From Puccinia triticina (Eukaryota > Basidiomycota > Pucciniomycetes > Pucciniales > Pucciniaceae): 64,000 nucleotides of DNA. A program made the position numbers and the translations under genes. Numbering within the stretch: the stretch's first letter is position 1; every line of letters starts with the position of its first letter. The notes below the pieces were generated by a model. It saw only the letters and a list, made by a program, of their open reading frames with translations, made no database searches and was not told the origin of the DNA. The stretch is taken from NCBI RefSeq assembly GCF_026914185.1, contig NC_070571.1:4526001-4590000 (forward strand), read 5' to 3'. Of this stretch, positions 1,185-51,211 are shown in pieces.

Positions 1185-1573
1185 TGTTGACTGGTATACA
1201 CCGGTCATCCCGAGGAGGTATTATTTCCCTTGATGACCAGTGTGTAATGATCATCAAGGGAAGGTGCTACTTCTACTGATGACCATCCATCACCGGTCAT
1301 TGAGGGGAGTAACATCGCATCTTGATGACTGGTCATCACCAGTCATGGAGGGGAGTAACATCTCCTCTCAATGACCGGTCTGTGCCGGTCATTGAGAGGA
1401 GTAGCACCTCCCCTTGATTACCGGTCTGTACCAGTCATTGAGAGGAGTACCATCTCCCCTTGATGACCAGTCTGTGCCGGTCATTGAGAGGAGTAGCACC
1501 TCCCCTCAATGACTGGTACACACTGGTCATCAAGGGAAATAACACCTACTCTGGATGACCAGTGTATACCGGT
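1185..1573. repeat. ACCGGT-centred minisatellite (left block)
   Basis: Degenerate units of about 60 bp alternate two palindromes: a GACCGGTC-type core (GACCGGT...GCCGGTC) and a GGAG...CTCC core, joined by TCATTGAGAGGAG / CTCCCCTCAATGA. The same unit resumes after element A (51127-51211) and again at 52145-52441, so this was one array before the insertions. The last five bases, CCGGT (1569-1573), are the left target-site duplication of element A. Confidence 0.85.
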
Positions 1574-2540
1574 TGTGAGCCTGAGTCTCTATAGTGACAA
1601 CAGGACACAAGAAATGGAGGGGGCAATAGTTGGATTTCTTGGGATAAAGAAACTACAACTATAAGAGAAAAAGAGGAAGAGAGAGAGAAACCAAGCAGGA
1701 TAAGGAAAAAGAGGAGTACTAGGTTATTCTAGTGGGAATGCACGTCCACTGGCAATGCTACTCTTCTTAAGAGTGCTGCTAATCTGTGCTAGAAGTGCCA
1801 CAGCTTCCTCTCAGGAGGGTATCTGGATTAGATAAGTTTAATCCAGCCACAATTTTTTAGCTTCCTTCTGGATAGTCAAGGTTCTTAAAGGGAAACCTGA
1901 GGGACAGCCCTGAACCTAGATTTTGAGGCAAAGGCCAAATGATAATAAGGGACAGCCCTGTGATCAAGATAGAGGCAAAGGCCTGTGGATTTAGAGGGAC
2001 AGCCCTGTGATCAAGAAGAAGGCAAAACCAGAAGAAAGAGCAAATCAAGAAAGACACAGAGTTGTACCTCTGAGATAAACAAGGTTCAGTGAAAGAGGTT
2101 ACTTACTGTCAATATCCTAGGCGCCTGTGACGGTAGGTATACTGGGAGTATAGTAGGCTCTTTGGTGGTGATCCTGGAGTTATCTGGGTGGTGGTTCTGG
2201 TGTGCTGAAGTCTGTAGATCCGCCTCAGGCAAGGGGGATCCTGACTACAAAGATTTTCACAGTTTGCTTATGTAATTTACATATGTACATGTGGTTTGGC
2301 GCGCCTGGTAGCGCTGACACGTCACAACTGCGCAAGCGCGCCACAACTCAATAACTCAGGGAAGGAGTATAGTTACAATGAATTGATAAGTTGTAACTAG
2401 GGTTAAAATTGCATGAGGAAACAGAATATGAAGTCAAAACAAGGTTATCTCTTAAGATGAAAAAGATATAAAGTAATTTATATGTAACAAAGGTAGAACA
2501 GGCAGCTTTTAGGTCAGCTGTGATGACTCTAAGGCTGACA
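1574..2540 (-). repeat. Element A 3' LTR (left copy)
   Basis: 967 bp, TGTGAGCC...GGCTGACA on the plus strand. It is nearly identical to 50160-51126. It lies next to the polypurine tract, which makes it the 3' LTR of the minus-strand element. Confidence 0.93.
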
Positions 2541-2556
2541 TTCCCTACCACCAAAA
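2541..2556 (-). other. Element A polypurine tract
   Basis: Read on the minus strand this is TTTTGGTGGTAGGGAA directly against the LTR start TGTCAGCC. This is the expected plus-strand primer position, and element B has a very similar tract (47582-47602). Confidence 0.75.
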
Positions 2557-2577
2557 GGGTTGGATTTCTGTAAGAAA

Positions 2578-5500
2578 TTAAACCACAGGGTTAGACCTCT
2601 TCTCACTTCTGAATTTCCTGAGAAGGATAGCAGAGTCTGGGATGTCTTTCTCAAGGAGCCATTCATCATGGTCAGCACTCATACCTTTGTATCTGGCTAA
2701 GTACATCATAACATCTCTGTTTTCCACCCTCAATCTCTTGTCTCTGAGAATCTTTTGTATGACTTTACTCTGAGGGGTCTTATCCATGGGGGGAATGACA
2801 ACTTTGACTTTCTGTCTCAAAGGGAACTTGTCTGGATTGGGGTCTTTGTATGGTTTCACCAAGCTGACAGGAAATGTGGGATGTTTCCTGCTAAACTCTT
2901 CAGTCAGTATCACTTCTACAGCATTCTTCCCATGTAAAGATTTCACAAGGAATGGTCCAGTGAAGGAGTCTCTCATCTTCTTAGGGCCAGACAGGTTGTT
3001 GAAGTTTGCTGTGGATATTAGGACTTTATCACCAACTTTGAAAGATGGTTCTTTGTGACTCTTGTCCCATCTCTCTTTGTTGTAAGATGTAGCTTCTGTT
3101 ATGCATTGCTCAGCATGTTTTCTAGCTTTCTCAAAGATCTTTCCATAGGCAAGAGCAGTAGGATGAATGTCTACAGAGTCTTGCTTCAAGAAATTCCTGG
3201 GAAGGTTTGGGATCCAGCCTTTTTCCAGGATGGCAGGAGGTTTTCCAGTGGTTGAATGTATGCTGGTGCAATATGCTAGCTCAAGGATTGGTAGAAGTGA
3301 AACCCAATCATGAGTATAACCATCATTGTCTTTGAATTCTAGACCATATGCACAAAACCTCCTGATCATATCTTCATGATTCAAACACTTGCAAGTGTTT
3401 GAATCATCCTTTCAGCTAATCCATCAGTCTGAGGGTGGTAAGCAGTGGAGAAGGAGAGTTTGGTTCCTAACATACTATGTAAACCAGTCCAGAATTCAGA
3501 TGTGAACTTAGGGTCTCTATCAGAGATGATGATTCTGGGGATGCCAGTCCTAGGCATTACTCTGTTCCAAAACAGTATCGCGGTGTCCATGGCAGAGTCA
3601 TCCTTGAAGCAGGGTACAAATATAGGGGTCTTAGAGTATCTGTCCACTATTACCAGACAAGCATTGAAACTAGCAGCTCCTCCAGGTGACAAGGAAGTTA
3701 CCCAATCCATGTTAATAACATCCCATGGTTTTGAAGGTTCCTCAATTTTCATGAGCAGTCCAAATCTTTTGCCTGTGGCTTTATTTGCTTTCTGGCATCT
3801 ATCACAGGAAGAGCAGTATTCACCAGTGTCTTGTCTCCAGTTAGCCCACCAAGCAGTATCAGCTACTTTTTCTAAAGTCCTATCTTCAGAAAGGTGACCA
3901 GAGTAGACACTGTCATGGCATTCATGCAAGATGGTGTTGATACTTTCTTTGTCAGCTAGGACTAGGACAGAGTTGTGCTTCTCTCTGAAGTAGATGAGGC
4001 CATCAAATATAGAGAATCTTCCTTCATCATATAGCTTTCTCCAAGGATCTTGTAAAGAATTTTTGAGCTGGGCATCTTTAGCATCTTTCAACAAAAGTTC
4101 AGACAATGTGGTAGTGTTCTTGTCTTGCTTGTAGCCTTCTCTCACTGAGTCAAAGAACTCATTCTTGAAAGTAGAGACATGTATGCCCATGATAGGGAAT
4201 CTATCATCATCCTTGTCTTCTGGGTCATAAGCAGGGTTACTAGGATCATTTGGCAAAGCCCATCTGCTCAGTCCATCAGCATTCTTGTGAATATTCCCAT
4301 CTCTGTGGATTATGGTCATATTGCCTCTGTATTCCTGAATAGCAATCTGCCACCTGAGCATATGTCTGTTGGGAGTCTTCATATTCAGCAGTGATCTCAA
4401 AGCTGTGCAATCTGTTACAACATGAAAGACACTGCCATCTAAGTAGTAATGGAGTTTTTCCAGGGCCCAAACCAGACATAAGCATTCAAGTTGACTAGCA
4501 CCATATCTTGTTTCACCGTCCTTCAGTTGTCTGGATATGAAAACAATGGGTCCTTCTTTTCTCACTCCATCAATGACTTGGACTTGATGTAAAGCAGCAC
4601 CTAGACCAGTCATGCTAGCATCTACATATAGTGTGAAGGGATGGGCCCAGTCAGGAAACAGTAGCAATGGAGCTGTGGTCAGTTTCTCTTTTAACAAGTT
4701 GTAGGCTACTATTCTATGATGGGTCATCTCATATATGACATCAATCCTTGTCAGTTCAGTTAGAGGTTTTGCTATCTCTGCAAACTTCTCAATGTGTTGT
4801 CTGTAGTAGCCAGCAAAACCAAGAAATGATTGCATTTCTTTTCTACTACCAGGCACAGGTTTTTGGAGGACAGCAGCTACTTTATTCTGATCTATTCCTA
4901 TGGCAATGCCAGAGACAAGATGGCCCAGAGCTTTGATCTGATCAAATCCAAAGTTACACTTCTTCAAGGAGATTTTCATGTTCATGTTAATGACAACTTT
5001 CATGATCCTGTCTATCCTATTGAGTTGTTCCTCCCAAGTGTTGGACATAATGATGATATCATCAATGTAGATAATGACCCACTTCTCATCAATTTCCTTT
5101 CTAAACTCAATGTCCATCATTCTCTGGAAATGAGAGGGGGCATTCTTGATCCCAAAGGGCATTCTCAGGTACTCATAGATTCCTTTGTGCAGAGTAGATG
5201 TCTGGAATCTTCTGCAATGACATTCTGGTGAAAACCTTTGAGTACATCCATACTAGTCAGATACTTAGCTTTGGCCAGGTTGTTCAGAGTCTCACTGATC
5301 TTGGGAATGGGATACCTGTCTGAAGCAGTGTAGGAATTTAAAGCCCTGAAGTCTCCTACCATTCTGGATTTTCCATTGTGCCAGGCAATGATTACAGGAG
5401 TAGGGATCTCAACTACTTCATTATGACCAACTTTCCTTAGAACATTCAGGTTTACTATTTCTTCAATGTGTTGCTCAAGAGCTTCTCTGCTTTTGGGGCT

Positions 5501-8422
5501 GGCAGGATAAGGAGGTCTTCTGAGGAGAGGAGGATAGGGTCTCTCAGTTGTCAACTTGATATGAACTTCATGACCCTTAATGGCACCAAGGGGCTGGTTG
5601 GTGTTTGAGAAGGCAAGGTTGTTATTGTAGAGGACTTCAAACAGCTTCTCCTTTTGCTCAATAGTCAAATTATCACTGAACTTGGCTTCACAGAGTTCTT
5701 CTGTAATAAATTTCTGCAGTTGAGGATGGGACTTCTTTACAGCAGAAATTTCATTGGAAGGGCTCATTTTCTCCAGATGATGAGACTTAAAGCTGAATTT
5801 CTTCCTCTTGTTCTCATTTCCAATGGTAAAGAATCTCTCTTTGCTGTTTGTGATGTCAAAGCCATAAAGAGACATGTAATCATTTCCAAGGATAAGATAG
5901 TTAATTCTTGCATTTCTCATGACTACAAATTCTGCTAGAATTCTAATGGAACCTTTAGTTTGAGGAAAAATCAAAGCCATTTTTATTATGCCCATTGGCT
6001 GTAATTGGTCACTACAGCTGTAAAATTTAGCATGGTTAATTGGCATGAGCTTGTTTTCCCATACTGGTAATATAGAATCTAGCAATTTGTTGCTGATGAT
6101 TGAGCAAAAAGCTCCACTATCAAGAAGACATGATTGTTCTTTGGATTCAATGAGGACAGTAGTAAGATTTGCTTTTCCAGTAAGATGAGCTTTTCCTCTA
6201 TCAGGTTTACATTTCATCAGTCTAGCATCCTCTATGTGGGAAGACTGGCAGGATTTGTCCCAGGTCTGGGGTTGATGAGTTTCAGCTTGAATTTCAGCAA
6301 TGGAGAAGTCTTGGTTTATCTCACACTCTACAGCATGTGCTCCAAAATCAAAATCAACTAAGGGGTCATAATTGGCACCATTTCCATTGTCCATGGCAAG
6401 GATCATGTGATTGGTTCTATGATTCTCTTCTTCTTCATCTAGTTCTGATTCAGACTTGTGTGGTTCACCTTGATCTTCTCCATTGTCACTCTTGGGATCA
6501 TCATCATCATCCATTCCTACATTATTAATTCTGCTCTTCTTCTTAGGGCATTCCCTGGAGAAGTGGCCAGTTTGTTTGCAGAAATGACAGATGAGTTTTT
6601 CTTTCTCAGGGGCAGAGACAGGATTCCTTTTAGTGGAGGAGTCAGTTGGCTTATCAGTTTTCTCAGGGGCAGTATTGTTTCTCCATTGGGATCTATTAGG
6701 AGTGTTATAATTGTTTGTCACAGGCTTGTTCCTTTTCATGACTCTGTCTATGACTTCTTCAGCAATTATAACCATATCCTCAAAACTCATTTCAGTAGCA
6801 TCTCTTTTGTATCTGCTTTTAATAGCATGCTCAAGATTTGGAGGGCATTGCTTCAAGATTTTTTCACAAATAAGATACTCACTGAGTTCAGGTTGATAAG
6901 CCTTCAGTCTTTCTCTCTGATTACCAAACCATTTATGGATTTTCCTCCCATCATAGGCAAAGTGATCATTCTCAAACTCTTGTTGCATTTTCCATTTCCA
7001 GTTCTCAGTACCAAACTTGTTTCTGATGGCATTCTTCCACCAAGCCCAAGATTTGTTCCCATACTGGTCTCTGATGCCTAGGTACCAATTCCTTGCAGTG
7101 TCAGTTAACAGGATTGTTAATCTACTGATTATCATGTTATCCAGCATCAAGTAGTCCCTGACCAAGATATCAGTGTTTTTAATCCAAAGTTCATGATTGT
7201 AAGGCAATTCTCCAGAAAATTTCTCCCAGTCTCCATTTTTGGGGATACCTTTCCACAATTATTTCCTCATTTCAAAGTCTATTGCTCCATGATCAATGTA
7301 GGGGAATTCCTCTTGGGTCTTAGCATCAGGAGTATTGCTAGCAGACTTAGGAAAGTTATCTCTTGGAGGTCTCTGGGGTTCAGGAGTAGGAACAGGAGGA
7401 GGTGGTCTGTGTTCCTGTTGTTGCTCATGGTGTATATTCTGGAAGGGATTATTGTATAAGAGATGAGGGGGTTGGTCTCTGTCATCTGGTATTAACACGG
7501 AATCCAGCTTTGAGCTCACAGTGTTTACTACAGAAGATATGTCACTGAATCTTCTCTTAGATTGTTCAAATCTATTGTGCTCATTGGCATGAAGGTCATT
7601 GATCTGATTACCAATGGAAGTAAGATTGTTGCTCACTTTCTCTTCAAAATCTTTCAGAATTTGGCCAATTTTCTCCATGTTAGAATGACATTGTGATTCA
7701 TTTACCAGAATTAAATCTTGAACTGTCTCAAACTTCTCACCTATGTGTCTCTTCAGTTGTTCTAACACATTGTTATTCACTGTGGACTTCTCTCTGGCAC
7801 TTTCACCTATGTTGTTCAGGATTTGATCAAGCAAAAAGGGGATGAATTCATTTTTAAACAGATCAAGAATGGAATGATTCAGGACATCTTTAAAATTGCT
7901 GACACAAGATTCAAGAAGAGTACCAGGAATGGTTTCAACAGTACCAGATAATTCAGAGAGGAATTTAGAGAACAAGACTTGTAATTTTTCTTCTAGAAAC
8001 AAAGGACCATTTCTAGACATTTCAGAGTTAAGATTATTGAGGAAAAATTCTCTATTTGAAGGATCAGAGAGATTGTCAATATCTAAACTGAGGCCTAATG
8101 GGGAATCACCACTTAAAGAGCTTTTAGGTAAAGATTCATCTAATAAGGGCCTCTCCCTCTGGCTCTCCCTTGTCCATAGCCTCTCCTCACTCCTCGTGTG
8201 GCTCTCATCAGGTATTCTCCTATTTCTAGAACTCTCTGAGTGTTGTCCTGAGGGCGTCTCCAGTTCCTCCCTGATCCTCTCCAGTTGTTTTGAGGAGGAG
8301 GGGGGTTGCGGCCTGTGAATTCTTGCGGCATTTGCGGATAAAGGGGTGGATTGTAGCCGCCAGTTTGAAGATGCGGGCTGGGGCGGAATAACTGAACCAC
8401 CTCTCGCGGTATAGAAGCTGGT
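2578..8422 (-). pseudogene. Element A gag-pol polyprotein, main part (broken)
   Basis: Read leftwards from the element B junction. A predicted coiled-coil-rich gag N-terminus is followed by a capsid-like region (from about 7258), an intact CCHC knuckle (CHFCKQTGHFSREC, about 6560), an aspartic protease (LLDSGAF, about 6120), reverse transcriptase with YIDD (about 5065), RNase H with LYVDAS (about 4625), and integrase with an HHCC zinc site and the first two acidic residues (MDW and DRD). A chromodomain-like C-terminus ends at 2578. Lesions seen: in-frame TAA at 7259-7261; a frameshift near 5200 where, compared with element B, about 10 nt are missing between the DSR and EYLRM motifs of RT; and a 17-nt insertion near 3390 that makes a perfect palindrome and shifts the integrase frame just after AERMIQTL. 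The domain order is typical of Ty3 chromodomain elements. The N-terminus continues across element B at 48457-48795. Confidence 0.9.
8140..8422 (-). CDS. Element A ORF1, C-terminal part
   Basis: On the minus strand this frame continues ORF1 from 48457 after element B and one CTGGT copy are removed. It ends at a stop at 8140-8142 after a Gly/Arg-rich tail (RRGYGQGRARGRGPY). It overlaps the gag-pol frame throughout. Basic RG-rich tails often bind nucleic acid, but the function here is unknown. Confidence 0.6.
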
Positions 8423-8707
8423 TGTCAGACACTGAGACACTAAGTCCATGTAACTACAATGTTTAGTACATGTCTTATAACCTAATGGTTAAAGACTTCT
8501 TTAATAATTGACTCTTGTACATGAATTCAAGAGTTCAATTCCCTGTCATTACATTAATTATGTACCTTTTCTTCCTATGTACTATTATTATGTACTTATT
8601 ACATATTTCACATTCTTTTGAATATGTAATTAAACCTTATTTCACACTGATTACATATTTGTACATACAGAGAGAGATAATCTTATCTCTCTGTGTATTT
8701 ATCCTGA
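8423..8707 (+). repeat. Element B 5' LTR, first part
   Basis: Matches 47603-47887 of the intact 3' LTR with about five differences. It ends ...TTTATCCTGA exactly where the Helitron starts. Confidence 0.95.
8478..8541 (+). promoter_or_regulatory. tRNA-like Pol III A/B-box pair in the LTR
   Basis: TAACCTAATGG at 8478-8488 resembles a degenerate A box. GTTCAATTC at 8533-8541 fits the B-box consensus GWTCRANNC. The spacing (about 45 nt) is tRNA-like. The same pair is at 47658-47668 and 47713-47721 in the other LTR. I cannot fold a full cloverleaf, so I call this a possible promoter or tRNA-derived relic. Confidence 0.4.
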
Positions 8708-8719
8708 CTAGACTTTCAA

Positions 8720-8734
8720 GGCGGCTTCGCCGCC
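8720..8734 (-). terminator. Helitron 3'-terminal hairpin
   Basis: GGCGGC (8720-8725) and GCCGCC (8729-8734) form a perfect 6-bp stem with a 3-nt loop. On the minus strand it is followed by TTGAAAGT and the terminal CTAG. This position and composition match the canonical Helitron transposition-termination hairpin. Confidence 0.9.
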
Positions 8735-9184
8735 GCTTGTCGCAGACCGTGGATAAATTTCAAGTTGAATTCAAACTCTAATTGAAGTGTCTGTTGGCTG
8801 CTTTACCCGAGAATTTTGGAAGGAGTAAAGTTGAAGTTTCCAATATAGCAGGTAAGATTAAAAGATGAATTGAAAAAATGATGAAATTGAGGAGGAGGAA
8901 AAAGCAGATTCACATGACATTATTATGTTTATCATCTCAGGGAAACATGAGTGTGTCTTTCAAACAGGCAATTTGAACGCTATGAAGCTAATGGCGCCCG
9001 CAGTATCCTAATCATTAGAGTGAGTCACTATCCTACTGCCAAGCGCTGGAACATTGTATCTCGACCAATTGAGCAGGTCAATTTTGAGTTAAATTCAAAC
9101 ATTTGCGCAAATCCCTAAACAACCGGGAGTCTGTTGAATCCCCCTTGAGAGCTTAACGTTGATGATCCCTACAACCTATTCAAT
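8735..9184. other. Helitron 3'-terminal noncoding region
   Basis: About 450 bp between the terminal hairpin and the stop of the last Helitron gene. No coding signal is seen. Confidence 0.5.
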
Positions 9185-10169
9185 CTATTTCCCGACTTGT
9201 CCGTCGTGAAGATACCAGCTAGTCACCTGAGGAGAAGTCAGGAATGTGTTTTACACTAACATTTAAATCATATTTCTCAGCTCACCTTGACGCTCATCAT
9301 GTCAAGCCTTCGACTCCACCCTCCTAACGTCCCACAGAACAAAACTTGTCTGCCAACCGTAAAAGCCTTGGAAAACGTTTTAGCAGAATTATTCCAAGGG
9401 ACGACGTATTCAACTAAAATGCTTTGATCTTCTTCGTCCTGTTTAGTGGTAATGTCAGTTTCTGGTAAAGCTATGCAAGGGGAAAACTAACATCTTCATT
9501 GACACCGTCATGGCGAACAACAACAGATATGGTGCTTTCATGTTGTTGATTATCAAGATCACTGAGAGGTTTGTCGACACGACCAAGGGACCTAATTTGA
9601 ATGTCTTGTTTTGGATAGTTTTCGGGTACCTCATGTTTTCCATCGATGTCACACATAAAAAAAGGCATTTCGTGTCTTTTTGCGCCGACAAGAAATCCCT
9701 TGAGCGCGTAAAGTTTCCCATACGCTAACTTGTTGGAAAGCTTCGTGTTATAAATCAGAAGAGCACAAGCATGGTCGTCCAGCCCAGTCAAACCACCAGT
9801 AACATTGTATTTAACTTGTGTCATGAGCGTTTGAATCGCAGCAGATTGTTTGTAATTCTCGACCGTCTGATTAAATGAGAAGTTAGATTAGATGAAAATG
9901 ATGAGTAAAGATTGTTATTCAAGGTCAGGAGCTCTTACTGTATGTGATATAGCAAATACTCCACTGAAATCAAACCAGGAGTGATTTGCCAACCGCTTGA
10001 AGCCGATAATGGAACCTTCCATTTTAATTAGAGAACTGGGGAAAGTTCTGCTAAATAATTGTGGCATCGTTTTATTGTGACATGAGATTCGTACGGTATC
10101 TATGTTAACACAAAGAAGGTCGCATTTGCCACGCCCATGTGAACCCTTCCCCCTGCCAAAAGCTTTCAC
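9185..10169 (-). CDS. Helitron-borne paralog OB-2, putative OB-fold-like protein
   Basis: Four exons on the minus strand, all phase 0: 10169-9939, 9866-9492, 9438-9286, 9226-9185 (stop 9185-9187), with donors GTAAGA, GTTAGT and GTGAGC; about 266 aa. I do not recognise a named family. The exon plan, the exact 51-codon third exon, and the pattern of alternating hydrophobic stretches ending in a Gly-containing strand (VGRQVLFCGTLGG) are shared with three neighbours (10897-11813, 12353-13204, 19287-39705). The last exon starts VTS, as in the gene at 10897. Small beta-barrel proteins such as OB-fold ssDNA-binding proteins look like this, and some plant Helitrons carry RPA-like genes. The functional guess is inference only. 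No lesion is seen, so it may be intact. Confidence 0.7.
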
Positions 10170-10896
10170 TCAAGGGTGATGTTCTCCTCCTTGTACCCTG
10201 GCAACCTTCACTGAGGTAACCAATTTGCGGCAGGATCCTGGATGAATCGCCACAGAAGGGATAATGTGAAGCACCCAACAAGGCGATAATTGCTCTATTT
10301 TAAGTCGGGTATGAGGTTGTTACATGGAGACATATTGAAGTCTCTAGGTCTACCCCAACAACATTCCCCAGTTTTGAAATTAAAAAAGAATCTTTGATGA
10401 GATCGGGATGTCTTGTACGATACAATAAATGTTTCCATCATTACCAAACTTGGATGAGTGGCTCTTATGCTAATCACTTATGCATTTGATTTTGCAAACG
10501 GAAGTTTTATATCATAAGACAAGATCCTGAATCTCACCGCTCTTGCTCAGTTCTCACAACCTTTGGCAGGAGTGTAAAGTTTACTCTTGCTTGAACCTGC
10601 CACTTAGGAGAACCTGAGATTTACAAGAATAGCGGGGATAAAGGAAAAGACGGGTCTTTTGTAAACTCGTATTTTTTCGCCTGAGAAACACACATACTAT
10701 TAATGGAGCATTCAGTAAAAGCTGAGTAAAAGCAAGAGACAACATTGCAAAGTGATACGGAAAATGTAAAGTGGCAAAGAAATTCATGAGTGATTATTAT
10801 CAACAACAAGCAATGATTAAGGACCATGATTTTTCACATGAATTGACCAGAAACATTGACAAATCAAACATTGAAGATGAGAAAAATCAAATCTGA
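10170..10896. other. Intergenic, Helitron
   Basis: About 730 bp between two same-strand paralogs. No further exon can be supported. It presumably holds the promoter of the gene at 9185-10169 and the 3' end of the next gene. Confidence 0.4.
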
Positions 10897-11813
10897 TTAC
10901 TCTTCAAGGTTTTTGCAAACTGACAAGAAGTGGCGTTTTGGACCATTCATGTAAGTTGGGCATCCTCCAACGACTCCAGAGGTAACCTAATACTTTTTTT
11001 CGTAAGCGATTTAGTGTGACAGATATGGTATAATTTGGAACTCACATTGATAATTATAATACCACGCCGCGTGTTGTAGCCACAAAACTCTCCAGAGAGT
11101 TGAACCCTAGCCCCAGGATCCAAACGAACGGCATCGTTGATGTGAATGCGGGTGCTGTCAACAAAGTATTTGATATAGAACTCTCCAGATTGCAGTTGCT
11201 GGAGAAATCAAATAAGTAAAGGACATTGTGTGATTCCAGTAAGGTAGAACCTACATCAGATTTATGGCCGACGAGAAGCTCGATGTAATCCCAATCAGTC
11301 CTGCCAGTTTCCTTATTCCTTGAGCTTGGAAGAAGGCGAAGACGCCGTATTGTTCCCACTCCAATTATGGAAACAGTTGAAGGAAGACTGGCAGCCCTTG
11401 TGTAGCGGATATGCTTGATTGCGCCTGATGAATACCTGAATTCATAATTTCCTTGGAAGTCGGTGACAACAACCTCCCCGCAGAGGTTGTAGAATTCCCT
11501 GTTGTTGAGTAATTGAAGCGGAGACCCCTTTGGAGCTAAGGTGACACTAATCTTTGAGCTTTTTGAGGACGGAACATTCTTAACACTGATTGCTGATCGG
11601 ACGGCATTTCTTGTAGGTTCCTCTTCGTTGTCGCGCTCTTGTATGAACTGCAACAAGGAGAATTAATAATGAAACAATTGAGGGCAAAGACGAGTTACTC
11701 ACCAACGCGTTAGCCTTGAATTTCCCCCTGAAGAATATGTTATCCGCCGATCCAATCGCTTCAGACAAAGCTTCGCAAATTGTTTGGCCGTCAGTGTTTT
11801 GTTGGTCATCCAT
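10897..11813 (-). CDS. Helitron-borne paralog OB-1, putative OB-fold-like protein
   Basis: Four phase-0 exons on the minus strand: 11813-11703 (starts MDDQQNTDGQ), 11647-11255, 11198-11046, 10986-10897 (stop 10897-10899), giving about 248 aa with GTGAGT or GTAGGT donors. The N-terminus has the element 'ADNIFFRGKFKA', matched in the gene at 12353 by 'ADSMTFSGRFKV'. The third exon is exactly 51 codons and ends GARVQLSGEFCG...GIIIIN, matching GNRVDLSGRLQG...CCIIVE in the same paralog. Repeated hydrophobic strands around glycines suggest a small beta-barrel, perhaps OB-fold. No catalytic motif or signal peptide is seen. The frame is intact across all exons. A role in binding single-stranded DNA for rolling-circle transposition would fit the context but is not shown. 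Confidence 0.72.
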
Positions 11814-30294: not shown

Positions 30295-30361
30295 CAACAT
30301 CCAACGGTTTCTTCGCTGGACGTATTGCGGAACTTGACACACAACCCTTGGCCCCTGGGAC

Positions 30362-38943: not shown

Positions 38944-38994
38944 CAAGGCATGTTTCAGTTTTATTTGATGAATTTACAACTATTTTTATATAAA

Positions 38995-39043
38995 TGTTTC
39001 AGCATGGCAATGTGCACATGTTGCCTCCCTTTTTGGGGTGGTG
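38995..39043 (-). repeat. CACTA right terminal inverted repeat
   Basis: Reverse complement of 19861-19910 with one gap and a few mismatches; ends GGGGTGGTG at 39043. Confidence 0.9.
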
Positions 39044-39046
39044 AGA

Positions 39047-41060: not shown

Positions 41061-41114
41061 ATAGCACCTTCTAAGAATATAAAGCCTCGACCCGTCATGG
41101 TAGATGTTTCCCTT

Positions 41115-41152
41115 GCGGCTCCGGATTTTGGCTTTTTTGCTGCCGGAGCCGC
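41115..41152. other. Hairpin near the Helitron 5' end (1)
   Basis: GCGGCTCCGG (41115-41124) pairs perfectly with CCGGAGCCGC (41143-41152) around an 18-nt loop. Confidence 0.75.
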
Positions 41153-41185
41153 CTGTTACAATGGGGGCTTATTGGAAAGGGGGTT

Positions 41186-41218
41186 TTAGACTGGTTAGCG
41201 GGACTCGCGCCAGTCTAA
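41186..41218. other. Hairpin near the Helitron 5' end (2)
   Basis: TTAGACTGG (41186-41194) pairs with CCAGTCTAA (41210-41218), with an inner GCG/CGC pairing. Confidence 0.7.
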
Positions 41219-41235
41219 TTGCTACGCATTGTGGG

Positions 41236-41425
41236 CGCAATGACTGGGTTATCCAAAGTCATAAAACAAAAAGAATCAGGGCAAACCCATGACAAAAATT
41301 TCTGTCAATCACTGTTTTATTGAAACTTAGCGCAATGACTGGGTTATCCAAAGTCATAAAACAAAAAGAATCAGGGCAAACCCATGACAAAAATTTCTGT
41401 CAATCACTGTTTTATTGAAACTTAG
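41236..41425. repeat. Tandem 2 x 95 bp duplication of the Helitron 5' terminus
   Basis: 41236-41330 and 41331-41425 appear identical, each starting CGCAATGACTGGG and ending TTGAAACTTAG. The second copy ends at the true terminus, so the Helitron has two 5' ends in tandem. Confidence 0.9.
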
Positions 41426-41426
41426 A

Positions 41427-41990
41427 TTAAGCTCAAAGTATGTACAAATGGGGAGATTACATACCCATTTATGTAAATCCCCTTCTGAATTCCGTGATCA
41501 CTCCTCCTTGGAGTTAAGGATCTCTCAGGACCTTGACTCAAAGGAGGGAGCTGATCCCTGCAATATAAAAAGGGAGGTCTCTCACCTGTAGAGATTCTCC
41601 CACCAAGATTATTGCCATACAAACCCGTGTACCTTACTGAAAATACAGTGAGTGGGGTTTTTACATAGTCTACTAACCATCTTCTTCCTTTACAGCCCTT
41701 TCTCTCTCTTCGTGTATCTCTACCCTAGGTACAGGTGTTATTATCACACCTGTAACCTAGAAGATAAGTGAGTTCCTCCTTATACCGCAACGGCGCTTGG
41801 CTTGATTTTCGCCGCGTCCCCTTACACACGTAAGGGTGCCAGTCCCTCCGCCTCTCGGCGTTGAGTTGGACTTTATTCCACTGGCTTTCCAGCTATAGTG
41901 TGACCATTCTCCGCTTGCCGCTACTTCTCCGCCGCGGCCCGCGAGCTAAAACCCATCAGAGTTACATCACATAAGAGACAAACCCTGACA
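41427..41990 (+). repeat. Element B 5' LTR, second part
   Basis: Matches 47888-48451 with about three differences. It resumes exactly at TTAAGCTC after the Helitron. Confidence 0.95.
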
Positions 41991-42470
41991 ACTGGGGGTC
42001 TGGCCGGGAAATCTTTTCCTGTGTACCCAGCAAACCATATAATTCTTACATATAAAGAATCTCTTTACATTAAAAGTCCGCTCCGACTCCGGTCGCAGTT
42101 TCTAAGACAACCCTCCTCTCTTAGAAGCTTTTATAGCTCTTTCCCCGATCACGGTCGGCTCATACTTAACACCTTGGCTGATAAAGAGTTCTTCTCGCTA
42201 TCCTCACAGACTTGAGCCTTGCTTCCGGTCATCGCACGATAACCAGTACTCTTGACTGAAACGACTGAGCTCTCCGAACTCTTCACCTGATCCTGTATCA
42301 TAAACAGTAAGAGATCATCTAAAATTTTAGTGTTTTTTTCTTTGGTACCATCTGACGATAATCCTTCTATTGCGTTTCAATAGTGTCTACTTCTAAGCTT
42401 ACGTACGCTGGAGCCGTCCGTTCAACCACTCCTACCTCCAATCCGGTCCCTGCGATCGTTTGTCAATAAG
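41991..42470 (+). other. Element B leader with primer-binding site
   Basis: After a 2-nt gap from the LTR, TGGGGGTCTGGCCGGG (41993-42008) fits a tRNA 3'-end primer-binding site and resembles that of element A (TGGGGGCCTCATCGGG). The rest of the leader holds no supportable gene. The gag-pol frame is already open from 42384. Confidence 0.7.
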
Positions 42471-45400
42471 TTGAAACCCTTGAGTGAACAAACTCCTTTA
42501 AAAAATTCTCACAATAATTCTCTTGACTTTCTTCCTCCTTCAAACCTGACTGCTCAATCCAGCAGGGATAAAGGGAAAAATGTTGAGAAATGTCATTCTG
42601 TTGAATTGCCACCTGCTGTAGGAACTTCCAACAGTCATAAAAATCCAGAGCAAATTTGTTCTTGCCATAAAAGAATCTCTGAACTTAAGTTTGAGCATGA
42701 GCTCCTTAAAGAAGTCAATGACAAACTTGATTTCCTTGTAGAAATAGGAGAACAACCTATTAAGGACATTAATGAGAGAATTTTTTCAATGGAGAAAAAG
42801 AATGAGGAACGCTTTTCTACTTTGCTTGATAAATTGGAAGAGTTGAAGACTCTAAGCACTACTTTAGCTAATAAGCCAAGTGCTCCATCAAGTAATGTAA
42901 ATGTTAATCCAAGCACCTTTTTTCCTGGCCTAACTCCACAAGCAATGCCTAGACAACAAGAAAAAGAGAATTTTTTCAATGTTAACCAGACCAAAACAGA
43001 AATGGATCCTGGTAGACTAAATGAATTATTTGAAATTCCTGCAACGACTCCTCACCCTCAAATGACAGCCAGACAAGATATTTCTCAAGAGTCCAGTAAA
43101 GTTATATTACAAGGCCTGTCTAAGATGGAAGCTTGGCCTACCTTCTCAGGAGAAGGAGAGTACAATCACGTAGACTTTATTGAATGGATTGATACAATTC
43201 AACAAGACTCTAGAATTGAGGACATTGTTATTACTTCTAAATTGAAAAACATGTTCCCTGGTGTAGCCCATGCATGGTTTTCCAGTGTTAGATCTATGGT
43301 AGGAGATAAACCTTGGTCCTTCTGGAAAGATGCCATAAATCAGAAGTATGGGACTCCAGCATGGAGACGCAGACTTCTTATTATTTACCAGAAAGACAAA
43401 TTTGTTCCTGGTACTACACCAGCAGCAACCTGGGTCACAAGACAGTATAAGAGGATCATGGCTTGTGAACCTCAAACAAATCATGAAAGTCTTATGTTTA
43501 AGCTTTTAACCCAAATGGAAGGAGATGTTAGTTTTGCTGCTCAAAATGCAATGAAAGACAATCAGACTTTAACTTCTCTTATTAATGCTTTGGAAGATAT
43601 TGCAGAATATACTAACATAGGCAAGAGAAAACCTGGTTATATGCAAAATGGCAAAACTTACTCTCATCCTAATGGATCAGACAAGAATAAGGATAATTCA
43701 ACTAAGTCCAATGCTGAAGTCAAATTTTATTCTTGTGATAAGACAGGGCATACTTCAAGGAATTGCCCTAAAAATTCCAAGAAAGTAGCTGCTATAGGTG
43801 ATGAGGATGACACAGAAAATCCTGAAGCAGATTCAGAAAGTGATTCTGGAAACCAGAAGGCTGATCCGAATGTCCTCTGTGTAATTCCTAATACTTTGGA
43901 TTATTTCATCACACCTATCAGTGGTAGCAATAAGATTGTTTCCATGACATGTCGTGGAAAGACATGCAAAGTCCTGTTAGACTCTGGAGCTTTCAAGTCA
44001 GTTGTAGGACAGAATTATTTATCTAAATTCTGCCCTGATTGGGAAAAATTTGTCATATCAAAATCTTATGACAAATTCCACAGTTGCTCAGACAAGCTTA
44101 ACACTTTGGGAATAGTTAAAGTTCATCTTAAGTTTGGCAACTATGTTTTCCCCACTGATTTTATTGTTATTGAGAATGCAGTTGTAAACTACTTTATCAT
44201 AGGAAATGACTACTTAAGTCACTTTAAGATTTCTATTATGAATGACTCAGGCAGCTATTTCAAAATTGGTACAGATAACTTTAAACATCAATTTGTAAAA
44301 GATAAAAACAGTGTAGTAGCTATAACTCAATCATCACAGGAAGCTTTCACCCAAGAAGTAATTGAGAGTTCTAAAATAAATGTGAAACTCTCTGAAATTC
44401 AGAGAAAACAATTATTGCAATTACTTTTTGACAATAAATCAGCCTTTGCCACTATAGAAGAGCCATTCGGCGCAATTAAAGGGCATGAGGTTAAGACTTT
44501 AAGTATTGATAGACCTTATCCTCCAGTACTTCGTAAAGCACCATATCCTGCTAGTCCTAGAAGCAGAGAAGCTTTAGAAGAACATATACAGGCTCTACTT
44601 AAACTCAAAGTAATTAGAAAAGTGGGAGCAAATGAATTAGTTGATATAACTACACCAGTTATTATTGCCTGGCATAACAACAAGTCAAGACTAGTAGGAG
44701 ACTTTAGAGCACTTAACACCTATACTAATCCTGACAGGTATCCTATGCCTAAAATTATGGAATCCTTGAGTAAACTTCACAACTCTAAATACATCACTTG
44801 TATGGATGTACTTAAAGGATTCCATCAAAATGTTATTCACCCAGACAGCAGACAATTTTTGAGAATTGTCTGCCACCTAGGTGTATTTGAATATTTGCGT
44901 ATGACTTTTGGTATTAAAAATGCACCATCTCATTTTCAGAGAATGATGGATAATGAATTTGCTAATGAATTGAATCAGCTTTGGCTCATCATCTACATAG
45001 ATGATATTATTGTTTTCTCTGATAATTGGAATGATCATTTGTGCAGATTGAAAATATTCCTAAACAAAGTCACTAGAATGAATATGAAAATTTCACTTTC
45101 CAAGTGTCAATTTGGTTTTTCTGTGTTCAAAGCCTTGGCACACATTGTTAGTGGACTTTCTCTAGGAATTGACAAGTACAGAGTGGCTGCAGTTCTTTTG
45201 AAACCTATACCACAAAACTTAAAAGAAATGCAAATGTTTTTAGGTTTTGCAGGATATTACAGGTTACACAATCAGAATTTTGGCGCTATGGCGTCCAGCC
45301 TTTATAAACTATGTAGTCCTAGTGTAGTTTTTGAAATGACAGCAGAACGCGTAGCCGCTTATGAAGCAATTAAATTTGCTTTAACAAATGCTCCTTTGCT

Positions 45401-47576
45401 CTTTCATCCAGATCCTAAGTTACGCTTCATATTGTACGTCAAAGCGTGCATGGAAGGAATAGGAGCAGCATTGCACCAAATCCAAATAATTGATGATAAA
45501 CCTATTGAAGGGGCCATTTGCTTTATTTCCAGACAACTCAAAGACTCAGAAAAAAAGTATGGAGCTTCTCAACTAGAGTGTCTTTGTTTAGTCTGGGCCC
45601 TTGATAAGCTTTATTATTACTTAGATGGTTGTGAATTTGACGTCATCACAGATTGTATTGCACTAAGGTCTTTAGTCAATATGAAAACACCAAATAGACA
45701 CATGCTAAGATGGCAAATTTCCCTCCAAGAATGGCGTGGTTCTATGACTATAATTCACAGGGATGGTATTATCCATAAAAATGCTGATGGACTCTCTAGA
45801 TGGGCTCTTCCAAATAATTCAGATAATCCAGCCTATGATGCAGAAGATGAAGAAACAGCTGTTCCAGTTACATCTATCCTGCCTTTTCCCATGAGAATGT
45901 CTGAGTGTCTTGCTAATTGGGCCTTACCCAATGATGAAAATAATCCTGCCTTTGAAGAAGAGATTATTGATGACACTCAACCAATAATGGCAGTTTCTGT
46001 ATCAGGTTTAGCAAGCTCCTTCTGGGATTTGATTGAGAAAAGCTATGAGTCCAACAAAAACACAGCTATTCTTCTCCAGTTGCTTAAATCCAAACATTCA
46101 GATCAAGGTCTTGTAGAAAAACTTGAGGGAGTCTGGAAGAAGCATTTTTTAGAAGAAAGATTTGTACTCTTAGATGGTTTATTGTACCACAGAAGAGAAC
46201 ACAATTCTTCAGTAGTACTCATCTCAGATGATCACAAGAGTATTATTTTGAATGAATGTCATGACAGCATTACTGCTGGACACTTTTCCAAAGAAAGAAC
46301 CATCAACAGAGTACAAGGTTTGGCTTGGTGGCCTGAATGGCGAAACCAAGGTTCTCAGTACTGTGACTCCTGTGACAGATGTCAGAAAGCAAATAGGTCT
46401 ACAGGTAAAAAACTTGGTCTTTTACAAACTATTGAGGAGCCTAAAGGAAGATGGGAAGTCATTAACATGGACTTTGTTACGGCACTTCCCCCTGCAGGAT
46501 CAGAAAGCTATAATGCTGTCCTAGTAGTTTGTGACAGATTCTCCAAGAGAGCCAGATTCTTACCATGTTATAAGGATAGTAGTGCTATGGACATAGCTTT
46601 GGTTTTCTGGAACAACATTGTTAGTGATGTTGGTTGTCCTAGAGTAATTATTAGTGACAGAGATCCAAAATTTACGTCAGACTTCTGGCAAAATTTGTTT
46701 GAAATCCTTGGAACCAAATTGGCATTTTCAACTGCTTACCACCCTCAAACAGATGGTTTGGCTGAAAGGATGATCCAAACTTTAGAGGATATGATTAGGA
46801 GATATTGTGCCTATGGAGTAGATTTCAAGACCAGTGATGGATATACACATGACTGGGTATCTCTTTTGCCTGCTCTAAAATTTGCTTATAATTCAAGCAA
46901 ACATTCCACAACAGGAATCACTCCTTTTGAGCTTGAAAGAGGTTGGATCCCAAATATGCCTAAGGATTTCTTGCTCTCTAAAACCATTGCTTTACACCCT
47001 AGCTCTGAGTGTTTCCAGAAAATGATGTTTCAAGCAGGAGAACAAGCAGCTACATGTGTTAAAGAAGCAACTGAATACAACAAAGAACGCTGGGATAAGA
47101 CCCATAAAGACCATAACCTAGAAATAGGAGACAGAGTTCTTATCTCAACTGTAAACTTTAGCAACCTGGGAGGACCAAGAAAGTTAAAAGATGCTTTTAT
47201 TGGCCCTTTTGTTATTAAAGGCTTTCATGGGAGAAATGCTGTAGAAGTTATTTTGTCTGAAGAATTTAATCAGAGACACCCTACTTTTCCAATTAGCTTG
47301 TGTAAAAAGTACATTGACCCTGATAAAAACTCTGTGAGAACTTCTACAGTACCAGTTGTTCCACCAATTGAAGTGGACCAAAGTTCAAAATTGCCCCTCA
47401 AAATTTTAAAAGAAAAGACTGTAAGAAAGCAAGGAAAAGATTGCAAGTTGTTTTTAGTGAGGTTCAAGAATAGCCAACCAGATGAAGATCTATGGCTAAA
47501 ACCTGAAAATATCAACAACAGCCAAGTCTTGCTTAGACAATTTAGAGCTTCCAAAAGGTCTAAAAATTCCTCTTGA
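42471..47576 (+). CDS. Element B gag-pol polyprotein, uninterrupted frame
   Basis: One frame of about 1701 codons. In order: coiled-coil N-terminus, capsid-like region (about 205-400), zinc knuckle (about 419-433), protease LLDSGAF (about 502), RT with MDVLKGFHQ and YIDD (about 841), RNase H (about 985-1110), integrase HHCC (about 1262) and DDE (MDF about 1334, DRD about 1394, AERMIQ about 1431), then a chromodomain-like C-terminus. Oddities: the knuckle reads [14 protein letters not shown], so its first Cys is Phe (TTT for TGT). RNase H reads LYVKACMEG where element A has LYVDASMTG, so the first catalytic Asp is Lys (residue 991, 45441-45443). The frame begins at TTG, is open upstream to 42384, and has no ATG before about residue 107 (42789), so the start is uncertain. 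Although unbroken, the copy is probably defective. Confidence 0.92.
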
Positions 47577-47581
47577 AGAGT

Positions 47582-47602
47582 AATTTTTTTGGTGGGGGCG
47601 AA
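47582..47602 (+). other. Element B polypurine tract
   Basis: A T-run and GGTGGGGGCGAA lie directly before the 3' LTR start TGTCAGAC. Confidence 0.8.
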
Positions 47603-48451
47603 TGTCAGACACTGAGACACTAAGTCCATGTGTCTACAATGTTTAGGACATGTCTTATAACCTAATGGTTAAAGACTTCTTTAATAATTGACTCTTGTAC
47701 ATGAAGTCAAGAGTTCAATTCCCTGTCATTACATTAATTATGTCCCTTTTCTTCCTATGTACTATTATTATGTACTTATTACATATTTCACATTCTTTTG
47801 AATATGTAATTAAACCTTATTTCACACTGATTACATATTTGTACATACAGAGAGAGATAATCTTATCTCTCTGTGTATTTATCCTGATTAAGCTCAAAGT
47901 ATGTACAAATGGGGAGATTACATACCCATTTATGTAAATCCCCTTCTGAATTCCGTGATCACTCCTCCTTGGAGTTAAGGATCTCTCAGGACCTTGACTC
48001 AAAGGAGGGAGCTGATCCCTGCAATATAAAAAGGGAGGTCTCTCACCTGTAGAGATTCTCCCACCAAGATTATTGCCATACAAACCCGTGTACCTTACTG
48101 AAAATACAGTGAGTGGGGTTTTTACATAGTCTACTAACCATCTTCTTCCTTTACAGCCCTTTCTCTCTCTTCGTGTATCTCTACCCTAGGTACAGGTGTT
48201 ATTATCACACCTGTAACCTAGAAGATAAGTGAGTTCCTCCTTATACCGCAACGGCGCTTGGCTTGATTTTCGCCGCGTCCCCTTACACACGTAAGGGTGC
48301 CAGTCCCTCCGCCTCTCGGCGTTGAGTTGGACTTTATTCCACTGGCTTTCCAGCTATAGTGTGACCATTCTCCGCTTGCCGCTACTTCTCCGCCGCGGCC
48401 CACGAGCTAAAACCCATCAGAGTTACGTCACATAAGAGACGAACCCTGACA
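47603..48451 (+). repeat. Element B 3' LTR (intact)
   Basis: 849 bp, TGTCAGAC...CCCTGACA. It serves as the reference that shows where the Helitron cut the other LTR (47887|47888). It holds the Pol III-like box pair at 47658-47668 and 47713-47721. Confidence 0.95.
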
Positions 48452-48456
48452 CTGGT

Positions 48457-48795
48457 GGCGGCCTCACTTGGAGCGTCTGCGTCTGTGGCTGCGGCTGCAA
48501 AGGAGTTCCTTGGTAATGTTGGCTCTCTAGGCGCGGCTGGGATTGATGTTGAGGTTGAAACTGAGCCTGTTTGGAGGGGATAGGACCCTGGAACTCCTGC
48601 GCTACAGCTCGTAGTTGAGAACCCGTGGGTTCCGGCGTTGGCGTCGCTAGAATGGGTTGCTGACTGGCGTGCAGCACTGTGGCTAGCTGCGAATGAGGCC
48701 GGGATACTTGCGCCGTGGAGTTCTGCGGACCTAGGCCGTTGTTCTGGTTCATTAGAGAGGCTTCCAGGTTGTGTAGCTCGTCTCTGGGTATCCAT
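48457..48795 (-). CDS. Element A gag-pol N-terminus (overlapping frame)
   Basis: Begins ATG (MDTQRRATQP) at 48795 on the minus strand. It continues across the removed element B (ADAPSEAATSFYTARGG) into the gag-pol frame at 8422. The region is also read in another frame by ORF1, so about 620 nt are open in two frames. Whether this ATG is used, or gag-pol is reached by frameshifting from ORF1, cannot be told from sequence. Confidence 0.55.
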
Positions 48796-49970
48796 TCTTG
48801 ACAGAGACGGATACCATCGTTCCTCCCAACTAGTTCTATTATCATCTCCTGCGTCATAGAGGCTTGGGAGAGGAGGCGCCTCATGGTTAACGTGTTCTGC
48901 GCCTCCCTGGCGCGAACAAATAGGTCGAATTGTTCGTTGAACATGCTGATGAGGCTGGAAAGCTCTTCCTCTTCCGGGATAAGGTCCATGGGACCGGAGG
49001 ACGCCTCCCGTCGAGGGCTCTGAGTGTACGGAATGAGGGCTAGATTGGGCGGCGCCGTTGATCTCATGCCCTCTGGGTTGGTAGGCTGGGAGGGCGGTTG
49101 ACTCGTCGGAGGAAGGTTCACCGTCAAGTCTATCTGTTCCCTGTCAATAGGCCGCGGAACTGGCGTGGATCTGCTCGACGCTAGGGCTATGGATGTTTCC
49201 CTCGGCTGGTATAGGGCTGGAGGGATCCCGGTATCTGGGGGGAGCAGCTCCTCTTCCGGGAGCTTGAGGAAATCCTCCTGTAGTTCCAGCAAGACTGCTT
49301 CTAGCCCTTTGAAGCCGTTCTTTGGCGGCTGGGCTAAGGCGGTACCGGTGGCGGAGCTCTTCGGAGAGGTCTCGGCCATTTCTAAGGTGAGGAGGCATGA
49401 TGATTATGTGTAAGAAGGGAGGGTAATTAAGCAATAAAAATGAGGATTAAGAGTTGTTCAAGGTTAAATACCTGAAGATTTGGATTTAGCGGAAATCCTT
49501 TTGCTTTTCCTAGTAGTAGAGGACGCTTTCTTCTTGTTTTCTCTTGCGCTTGACTTTGCTGAGGGATTAGAAGTCCACTCGGCTATGTTGACGGGAGCTA
49601 CGGTCTTCTTTCGGCGAGTTTTTGGAGCACTGGCAGTAGCTATGGGCGTCCAAGAGGTACTACTGATCAAGTTACTGTTGCGGGGATGTGCTACTACTTT
49701 GTCGTCGTAGTTTTCTTTGTCTGCGCTAGTCTGCGCCGTCAAGAATTTTTTTGCGGTCAACTGCGGTAATTGTAGATAAGAAGCAGGAGAATCTTTTGAG
49801 CGCACTCCTTTTTTCGCTATCTCTTCTTGATCCGAAGATATAGAGGGTTCTGGGGAGGATAAGTCCGATGAAGGGATAAATAGCGGCGCGGAGGAGTCGC
49901 AATTCTGCACTTTCACGAGTACACAGTGCGTAAAAAAAAATTTCAAGGGTTCAGTTAGGAAATTTATCAA
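48457..49970 (-). CDS. Element A ORF1, N-terminal part (probably spliced)
   Basis: Exon 1 (49970-49465) is rich in Ser/Lys/Arg and ends with a basic tail (KSKRISAKSKSS). A GTATTT-TTAG intron of about 81 nt at phase 1 joins it in frame to ...EMAETSPKSSA (exon 2 from about 49383). Exon 2 has a helical segment (LSSLISMFNEQFDLFVRAREAQN) and a Pro/Gln-rich C-terminal part. The frame crosses the element B insertion point (VRPPPASIPRE) and ends at 8140. Total about 585 codons. It has no zinc knuckle and no similarity I recognise. The gag knuckle is in the other frame, so this looks like an extra ORF upstream of gag-pol. Confidence 0.6.
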
Positions 49971-50141
49971 TATAAAAGTAATTTTGGATAATTTTAGAAG
50001 AATTTTAGCGTTAGTAGGATATGTAGAAAATTTTTTAAAGTGAATTTTTCGAATTTTTTAAGAGTTTTTTGTTTGATTTGGTCAGGATGATCAGTCCTTT
50101 GGCTTTATAGCAGTCTAGAATTATGAAAGGTGAGTAATTTT

Positions 50142-50157
50142 CCCGATGAGGCCCCCA
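50142..50157 (-). other. Element A primer-binding site
   Basis: On the minus strand TGGGGGCCTCATCGGG begins 2 nt inside the 5' LTR end. It would pair with a tRNA ending CCCGATGAGGCCCCCA. Confidence 0.75.
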
Positions 50158-50159
50158 AT

Positions 50160-51126
50160 TGTGAGCCTGAGTCTCTATAGTGACAACAGGACACAAGAAA
50201 TGGAGGGGGCAATAGTTGGATTTCTTGGGATAAAGAAACTACAACTATAAGAGAAAAAGAGGAAGAGAGAGAGAAACCAAGCAGGATAAGGAAAAAGAGG
50301 AGTACTAGGTTATTCTAGTGGGAATGCACGTCCACTGGCAATGCTACTCTTCTTAAGAGTGCTGCTAATCTGTGCTAGAAGTGCCACAGCTTCCTCTCAG
50401 GAGGGTATCTGGATTAGATAAGTTTAATCCAGCCACAATTTTTTAGCTTCCTTCTGGATAGTCAAGGTTCTTAAAGGGAAACCTGAGGGACAGCCCTGAA
50501 CCTAGATTTTGAGGCAAAGGCCAAATGATAATAAGGGACAGCCCTGTGATCAAGATAGAGGCAAAGGCCTGTGGATTTAGAGGGACAGCCCTGTGATCAA
50601 GAAGAAGGCAAAACCAGAAGAAAGAGCAAATCAAGAAAGACACAGAGTTGTACCTCTGAGATAAACAAGGTTCAGTGAAAGAGGTTACTTACTGTCAATA
50701 TCCTAGGCGCCTGTGACGGTAGGTATACTGGGAGTATAGTAGGCTCTTTGGTGGTGATCCTGGAGTTATCTGGGTGGTGGTTCTGGTGTGCTGAAGTCTG
50801 TAGATCCGCCTCAGGCAAGGGGGATCCTGACTACAAAGATTTTCACAGTTTGCTTATGTAATTTACATATGTACATGTGGTTTGGCGCGCCTGGTAGCGC
50901 TGACACGTCACAACTGCGCAAGCGCGCCACAACTCAATAACTCAGGGAAGGAGTATGGTTACAATGAATTGATAAGTTGTAACTAGGATTAAAATTGCAT
51001 GAGAAAACAGAATATGAAGTCAAAACAAGTTTATCTCTTAAGATGAAAAAGATATAAAGTAATTTATATGTAACAAAGGTAGAACAGGCAGCTTTTAGGT
51101 CAGCTGTGATGACTCTAAGGCTGACA
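50160..51126 (-). repeat. Element A 5' LTR (right copy)
   Basis: 967 bp, paired with 1574-2540. It is followed immediately by the target duplication CCGGT (51127-51131). Confidence 0.93.
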
Positions 51127-51211
51127 CCGGTCAACAAGAGGAGGTGTGAGTCCCTGAATGGCCGGTAAAGACTGGTCATCAAGAGGAGTAGCACCTCCCC
51201 TCAATGACCGG
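51127..51211. repeat. ACCGGT minisatellite (middle block)
   Basis: Continues the array interrupted by element A and ends at the left edge of the putative solo LTR. Confidence 0.8.

Follow-up and report, generated by a model that had tools for sequence, protein, structure and literature searches.

A nest of five mobile elements in a minisatellite of Puccinia triticina, including a CACTA element of an SNF2-carrying lineage

How did a palindromic minisatellite of the rust fungus Puccinia triticina come to hold five mobile elements, one inside the other, and what can be said about the order of their insertion? The window considered here is a stretch of 64,000 nucleotides (G000:C14:4526001-4590000), and copies of its parts were searched for in the genome (122,823,596 bases, 18 contigs; contigs are denoted by C and single loci by L), whose assembly is called gapless in the paper that probably describes it (PMC9927501). 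Self-comparison and a reading of the junctions revealed a stack in which the minisatellite contains a Ty3 element with long terminal repeats (LTRs), termed A, which contains a second Ty3 element (B), which contains a Helitron; the Helitron contains a CACTA/EnSpm element and this in turn a snap-back element. The window sequence confirms each of the five insertions with its boundaries. Read base by base, every boundary and every target-site duplication (TSD) of a first-pass annotation of this DNA proved right, and its containment order and the identities it gave to A, B, the Helitron and the CACTA element hold as well. We consider it highly probable that five successive transpositions gave rise to the nest and that its CACTA element belongs to a lineage in which an SNF2 gene accompanies the transposase gene tnp2.

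Target sites and empty sites

The TSDs are CCGGT for A (1569-1573 and 51127-51131), CTGGT for B (8418-8422 and 48452-48456), AGA for the CACTA element (19858-19860 and 39044-39046) and AAT for the snap-back element (21684-21686 and 22904-22906). As the first-pass annotation had claimed, the joins are supported by TSDs or by comparison copies, and empty sites for B, the Helitron, the CACTA element and the snap-back element were found in copies of the same genome. In all three copies of A that were fetched, selected by their LTR spacing, the sequences flanking B join with an overlap of exactly 5 bp. The site of the Helitron is crossed by LTRs of the B family, which are unbroken over positions 1-849 in 28 of the 29 other copies fetched; the remaining one (L011) is split at a different position, and the right LTR of B itself is whole. 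The annotated length of the LTR restored by removing the Helitron is likewise correct (285 + 564 = 849, the same as the right LTR). The site of the CACTA element is empty in the one related Helitron that crosses it (C11:2694500-2694900), with an overlap of 3 bp, and the site of the snap-back element is empty in four of five close CACTA copies, again with a 3-bp overlap. The fifth copy has a deletion over this site, and a more distant CACTA copy (L098) shows the site approximately. Since the overlap at these empty sites elsewhere in the genome equals the length of the TSD exactly, chance can reasonably be dismissed.

The insert-free copies also support the earlier claim that open frames are restored at three joins. 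Here the frames were read in these copies themselves, without joining any sequence, and the sites of B, the snap-back element and the CACTA element were all found to lie in open frames. The B site falls into frames of 329, 366 and 367 codons (3/3), the frames at the snap-back site are open over the fetched stretch (3/3 examined) and the CACTA site lies in a 114-codon frame of the empty Helitron relative (1/1). A search for the gene that the CACTA element might interrupt gave only weak Pfam matches, below the curated cut-offs, for the flanking minus-strand open reading frames (ORFs) of the Helitron.

Set side by side, the two remainders of the minisatellite were recognized by Tandem Repeats Finder as a single 46-bp array of 7.9 copies which spans the junction, the register being restored. 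One 46-bp unit, an imperfect palindrome, folds at -18.5 kcal/mol. Genome-wide the array gave 1,639 first-look candidates, 40 of which were scored. At several loci the array pieces are arranged alike, so that the array may belong to a dispersed element. A further piece of the 46-bp array lies at 52144-52446, and 53098-53675 is occupied by another palindromic minisatellite, whose unit (~94 bp) is a different one.

Table 1. Features of the nest (window positions; aa, amino acids)
Feature	Position	Strand	Remarks
46-bp imperfectly palindromic minisatellite, left remainder	1181..1573	.	last 5 bp CCGGT, TSD of A
Ty3 A, 3' LTR, 967 bp	1574..2540	-	element reads on minus strand
Ty3 A, internal part, several ORFs	2541..8422	-	last 5 bp CTGGT, TSD of B
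Ty3 B, left LTR, first 285 bp	8423..8707	+	
Helitron, 32,719 bp including insert	8708..41426	-	between A and T of the LTR of B, no TSD
Helitron, Rep/helicase ORFs	13677..17145	-	Pfam Helitron_like_N, PIF1
CACTA/EnSpm element, 19,183 bp	19861..39043	+	termini CACCACCCC...GGGGTGGTG
SNF2 gene, several exons	20937..24410	+	inside CACTA; split by snap-back element
CACTA-like non-autonomous snap-back element, 1217 bp	21687..22903	.	CACTTCAAGG...CCTTGAAGTG
CACTA transposase gene tnp2	26754..28577	+	Transposase_21
Two further ORFs (28454-29506, 29531-30253)	28454..30253	+	downstream of tnp2; no Pfam match
Exact 2 x 95-bp tandem duplication of Helitron 5' terminus	41235..41424	-	
Ty3 B, left LTR, other 564 bp (849 in all)	41427..41990	+	
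Ty3 B, internal part	41991..47602	+	single 1701-aa frame 42471-47576 (reverse transcriptase, RNase H, integrase)
Ty3 B, right LTR, 849 bp	47603..48451	+	unbroken
Ty3 A, internal part right of B	48452..50159	-	48452-48456 CTGGT
Ty3 A, 5' LTR, 967 bp	50160..51126	-	4 differences from other LTR, all inside 74 bp
Minisatellite, right remainder	51127..51213	.	first 5 bp CCGGT

Both Ty3 elements have an LTR pair with TG...CA ends, a 5-bp TSD and the domain order reverse transcriptase-RNase H-integrase, the domains being split over several ORFs in A and lying in one ORF in B. The internal part of A gave Pfam matches to a zinc knuckle, reverse transcriptase, RNase H, integrase and SH3_Tf2-1, together with a weak chromo match. 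A 318-aa ORF at 48423-49379 lies mostly in A to the right of B and extends into the LTR of B.

The Helitron, 13,533 bp long without the CACTA element and one copy of its TSD, combines Rep/PIF1-helicase ORFs with a 5'-TC (41426-41425), a 3' hairpin (15-bp hairpin sequence, 8720-8734) followed by a CTRR end (CTAG-3', 8708-8711), and insertion between A and T without TSD. Among its relatives TC follows an A in five of five 5' ends. Thirty loci were fetched for the 3' end, of which 18 fit the hairpin-CTAG pattern and, after joining two overlapping pairs, represent 16 distinct ends, all with a T next to CTAG (16/16). These comprise only six distinct flanks, because a single flanking word recurs at 11 of the ends. 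The eleven ends, located elsewhere in the genome (among L046-L060), have the flanking word TATCTTG and probably sit in one repeated larger element. At the duplicated 5' terminus the match to five relatives begins at the second 95-bp unit, and the three readable ones (L099, L101, L102) have a single unit.

The two arms of the snap-back element (~520 bp at 91%, with a 350-bp part at 93%) are nearly complementary and enclose a short middle. Its family gave 313 first-look candidates, 40 of which were scored, the window copy included, and ten of the other 39 were examined alongside it. All 11 copies end in CACTT...AAGTG and ten have an exact 3-bp TSD, the remaining one reading as 4 bp (TATC). The element thus has the CACT...AGTG termini and 3-bp TSD of CACTA/EnSpm, looks CACTA-like and is best placed there, with termini different from those of the CACTA element that carries it (CACCACCCC). 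Long, nearly complementary arms around a short middle would also fit the Foldback superfamily. Foldback elements have long inverted arms and duplications of ~9 bp, and it was on the TSD, 3 bp in ten of 11 copies, as well as on the uniform termini that this assignment was set aside; we regard it as quite improbable. Another copy of the family was seen at C7:4851420-4854098 (L098 in part), where a 73-78% related SNF2 gene, belonging to a different CACTA element, holds it ~120 bp from the insertion point in the window.

Two statements of the first-pass annotation need to be corrected. It had counted four superfamilies; because the snap-back element is placed with CACTA, there are three. It had also stated that the nest uses all major target-site types. 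These include TA, 8-bp and 9-bp duplications, which are absent from the nest.

An SNF2 gene upstream of tnp2

The 19,183-bp element shows the hallmarks of CACTA/EnSpm, namely inverted CAC...GTG termini, a 3-bp TSD and a tnp2 gene (Transposase_21, E 2e-13). Its left end is 99-100% identical among six copies, that of the window included. A 3-bp TSD was found in all four copies of which both ends were fetched (AGA, ACA, ATA, ATT); two more were fetched at the left end only. The copy in the window is not intact, because the match of its tnp2 to other copies ends at codon 550 and the snap-back element splits its SNF2 gene. The five closest tnp2 rows lie there in 887-aa frames, and four of them are stop-free within the match while one has a TGA. 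In the window the palindrome TTGGACNATNGTCCAA occurs six times, always within the CACTA element (26045, 26181, 30362, 30396, 30430, 34580), and because these palindromes are internal and not near the ends of the element we claim no transposase-binding role for them.

SNF2 sequence is present in all six copies of the 99-100% left-end group. The window exons match the Pfam families SNF2-rel_dom and Helicase_C, and their translation holds stretches which we take to be SNF2 motifs I to VI. Compared with solved structures, the N-terminal piece is closest to Rad5; for the middle exon an SWI/SNF-related SMARCA chain ranks first, followed by Rad5. The Rad5/HLTF group has, besides the SNF2 motifs, an inserted RING finger and a HIRAN domain. 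Scans of four exon pieces of the window and of a 578-aa ORF from a different copy matched neither domain, the exon structure being only partly read. In the four relatives fetched, tnp2 and the two further ORFs follow downstream of SNF2 (4/4), and a fourth, antisense ORF of the window element was not found in them. No Pfam match to a TET/JBP cargo was obtained with the 15 distinct ORF pieces of the CACTA element that were scanned.

In the genome, tnp2 gave 75 match rows (73 of 250 candidates scored) and one SNF2 exon gave 150 (150 of 179 scored). An SNF2 match lies upstream on the same strand within 12 kb in 65 of the 75 listed tnp2 rows. This holds for 20 of the 27 rows with at least 58% identity (23 of 27 within 30 kb) and for 45 of the 47 rows at 41-44% identity; the one row left over, a fragment with 52% identity at C7:4790598, falls outside both groups and has its nearest SNF2 row ~16 kb upstream. 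Among the listed rows of both identity groups there is no SNF2 match on the opposite strand or downstream of tnp2 within 12 kb. When the SNF2 positions were shifted at random, the mean was 0.58 and the maximum 3 in 300 trials, for which the length of C17 was guessed. The tnp2 rows are not independent copies, since some are pieces of one element (e.g., three rows on C7 near 4.86 Mb). We conclude that the CACTA element belongs to a lineage that usually carries an SNF2 ATPase gene upstream of tnp2.

What does this gene do in the element? Comparison of the window SNF2 with three relatives over 323-325 codons, one relative having a stop in one block, gave ratios of nonsynonymous to synonymous substitution rates (dN/dS) of 0.12, 0.15 and 0.18. 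On balance we lean towards the view that the SNF2 ATPase, with its Rad5/HLTF-like relatives, is a standing and selected partner of tnp2 in a large CACTA lineage of Puccinia, the two having already been associated when transposase groups that are now only ~42% identical had yet to diverge. In that case these transposons would be equipped with a chromatin-remodelling or replication-fork enzyme of their own, much as TET/JBP demethylases are found in others. Judged from sequence, the ATPase most likely helps the element to transpose or to stay expressed in chromatin.

It could also be that SNF2 is a captured host gene which rides in CACTA elements and has no role in transposition. This possibility, which we find doubtful, is consistent with the relatives of one SNF2 copy. 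The 578-aa ORF of a copy on C15 is 40% identical to the window exon and has no listed tnp2 nearby. A search of protein databases showed 96% identity between an SNF2-type ORF of the genome and a protein of P. triticina. Among the best 120 of 5,685 proteins matched by the 578-aa ORF, P. triticina or P. graminis is the source of the named ones up to rank 37; beyond that rank, outside Puccinia, the matches have SNF2-family, HLTF and Rad5-type names at ~28-36% identity. A mere passenger is, however, at odds with the upstream position of SNF2 in both the near and the deep transposase group, with its absence from the other strand and from the downstream side within 12 kb in the listed rows, and with the low dN/dS.

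Order of the insertions

Containment proves the order of the insertions within the sequence lineage. To this extent the relative time order proposed by the first-pass annotation stands; as an order of arrival at the locus it goes too far for the CACTA and the snap-back element, since the Helitron could have brought the CACTA element with it and the CACTA element the snap-back element. The acting enzymes, and the location of each step at the window locus, we infer as follows. The integrase of a Ty3 element would have put A into the dispersed palindromic minisatellite with a 5-bp TSD. B, in opposite orientation, would then have landed in the coding region of A, again with a 5-bp TSD. Rolling-circle transfer would have placed the Helitron between an A and a T within the left LTR of B. 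A cut-and-paste CACTA/EnSpm element would have entered the Helitron with a 3-bp TSD, either at the window locus or in the donor of the Helitron, and finally the non-autonomous CACTA-like snap-back element would have entered the SNF2 gene of the CACTA element, also with a 3-bp TSD.

Helitrons are generally described as copying everything between their ends, and CACTA elements as moving in one piece. Part of the stack may therefore have been built elsewhere, the Helitron coming with the CACTA element or the CACTA element with the snap-back element, and containment alone is compatible with this. We consider such a prior assembly unlikely. The snap-back element is missing in four of the five close CACTA copies, the fifth is deleted there, and the left flanks of all five differ from that of the window; these observations favour its insertion in the CACTA copy of the window, although the composite may have come from a lost donor or from one on the other haplotype. 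As for the Helitron, no second copy near full identity was found among the matches listed, the best having 82% identity over 524 bases on the 3' side and 93% over 587 bases on the 5' side.

The LTRs of A differ at 4 of 967 positions (0.41%), all within 74 bp (2371-2444), and those of B at 8 of 849 (0.94%), located at 8452-8564 and 41941-41980, with none between LTR positions 143 and 799. Under uniform placement the clustering has P = 0.0016 for A and P = 0.00004 for B, in tests picked post hoc, and the value for B is further weakened by the B-family LTRs varying more toward their 3' end. Because the differences are clustered in both pairs, LTR-LTR conversion is suggested. At all four differing sites of A it is the right LTR that deviates from five of the six other copies, and the sixth copy (89% identical) shares the state of the right LTR at one of them. 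Relative to the five nearest family copies (L010-L014), the left LTR of B departs at five of the eight sites and the right LTR at three. The changes in B are not all strictly private, because at three sites (104, 142, 839) some more distant copy has the departing state. LTR dating was tried as a test of order and given up: 4/967 versus 8/849 neither supports nor significantly contradicts A before B. The LTR divergence is uninformative on this point, and therefore the order rests on containment.

Several observations speak against the nest of successive insertions as we read it. The LTRs of B, which lies inside A, have diverged more than those of A, the reverse of what A before B would lead one to expect, if not significantly so (P = 0.14 under equal age), and the differences are clustered in both pairs. 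The empty site of the CACTA element is known from one diverged Helitron copy of 73-78% identity. Finally, 10 of the 75 listed tnp2 rows lack an SNF2 match within 12 kb.

The LTR pattern, together with the departing states found in more distant copies, could also mean that the two LTRs of A or of B stem from different copies, or that the assembly contains a join within the nest. The first-pass annotation itself had named LTRs of different origin as an outcome that would overturn it. This is contradicted by nine states (103, 141, 194, 195, 226, 446, 470, 477, 679) which are common to both LTRs of A and absent from all six other A-family copies compared. Furthermore, the TSDs agree on both sides of each element, and the start-to-start distance of the A LTRs without the B insert and its TSD is 8,552, which other copies match (e.g., 8,551 at C11:2414979 and 2423530). 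LTRs from different copies were rejected on the shared states of A and the B-family comparison, and we regard such a mixed origin or a misjoin as extremely improbable. Taken as a whole, the earlier interpretation is partly supported, and five successive insertions remain our reading of the locus.

Relation to known elements and significance

Nested transposon clusters are known from maize and wheat. In rust fungi nested elements have been described which are partly unresolved (PMC12210899). In all of these several element classes are likewise inserted into one another, and the nest of the window is set apart only by the precise combination of its elements and by the empty sites that back its joins. 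For a rust genome rich in repeats, such a nest is nothing unusual. Helitrons of Fusarium oxysporum (PMC5148889) are non-canonical with several 5' termini and also show a short tandem repetition of the 5' terminus, whereas the Helitron of the window has canonical TC/CTAG ends and an exact 95-bp duplication.

The unexpected part, and the one worth following, is the pairing of SNF2 with tnp2. A study of fungal transposons (PMC12730594) describes EnSpm/CACTA elements of Puccinia, among them some that carry a TET/JBP gene. These elements resemble the element of the window in their CAC...GTG termini, 3-bp TSD, chromatin-related accessory gene and host genus; the accessory gene, however, is TET/JBP there and an SNF2 ATPase here, and the term SNF2 is absent from the main text of that study. 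AcademH and KolobokH are DNA transposons which, like the CACTA element of the window, encode a helicase (PMC10799480); they belong to other superfamilies and are likened here by description only. For inserted segments of Fusarium graminearum, one report lists CACTA elements and, separately, SNF2 helicase-like proteins (PMC11152077). In the accessible literature, with subscription papers and Repbase outside its scope, we found no description of SNF2 in CACTA/EnSpm elements.

The nest shows cleanly how containment can place insertions in a relative order, and it illustrates two limits of this approach: containment is silent on the date of arrival at the locus, and LTR divergence may oppose a known order. 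If the pairing of SNF2 and tnp2 holds beyond the genome of P. triticina, CACTA elements of rusts would keep a chromatin-acting ATPase of their own, which, if true, would touch on how transposons spread in repeat-rich, DNA-methylating fungal genomes.

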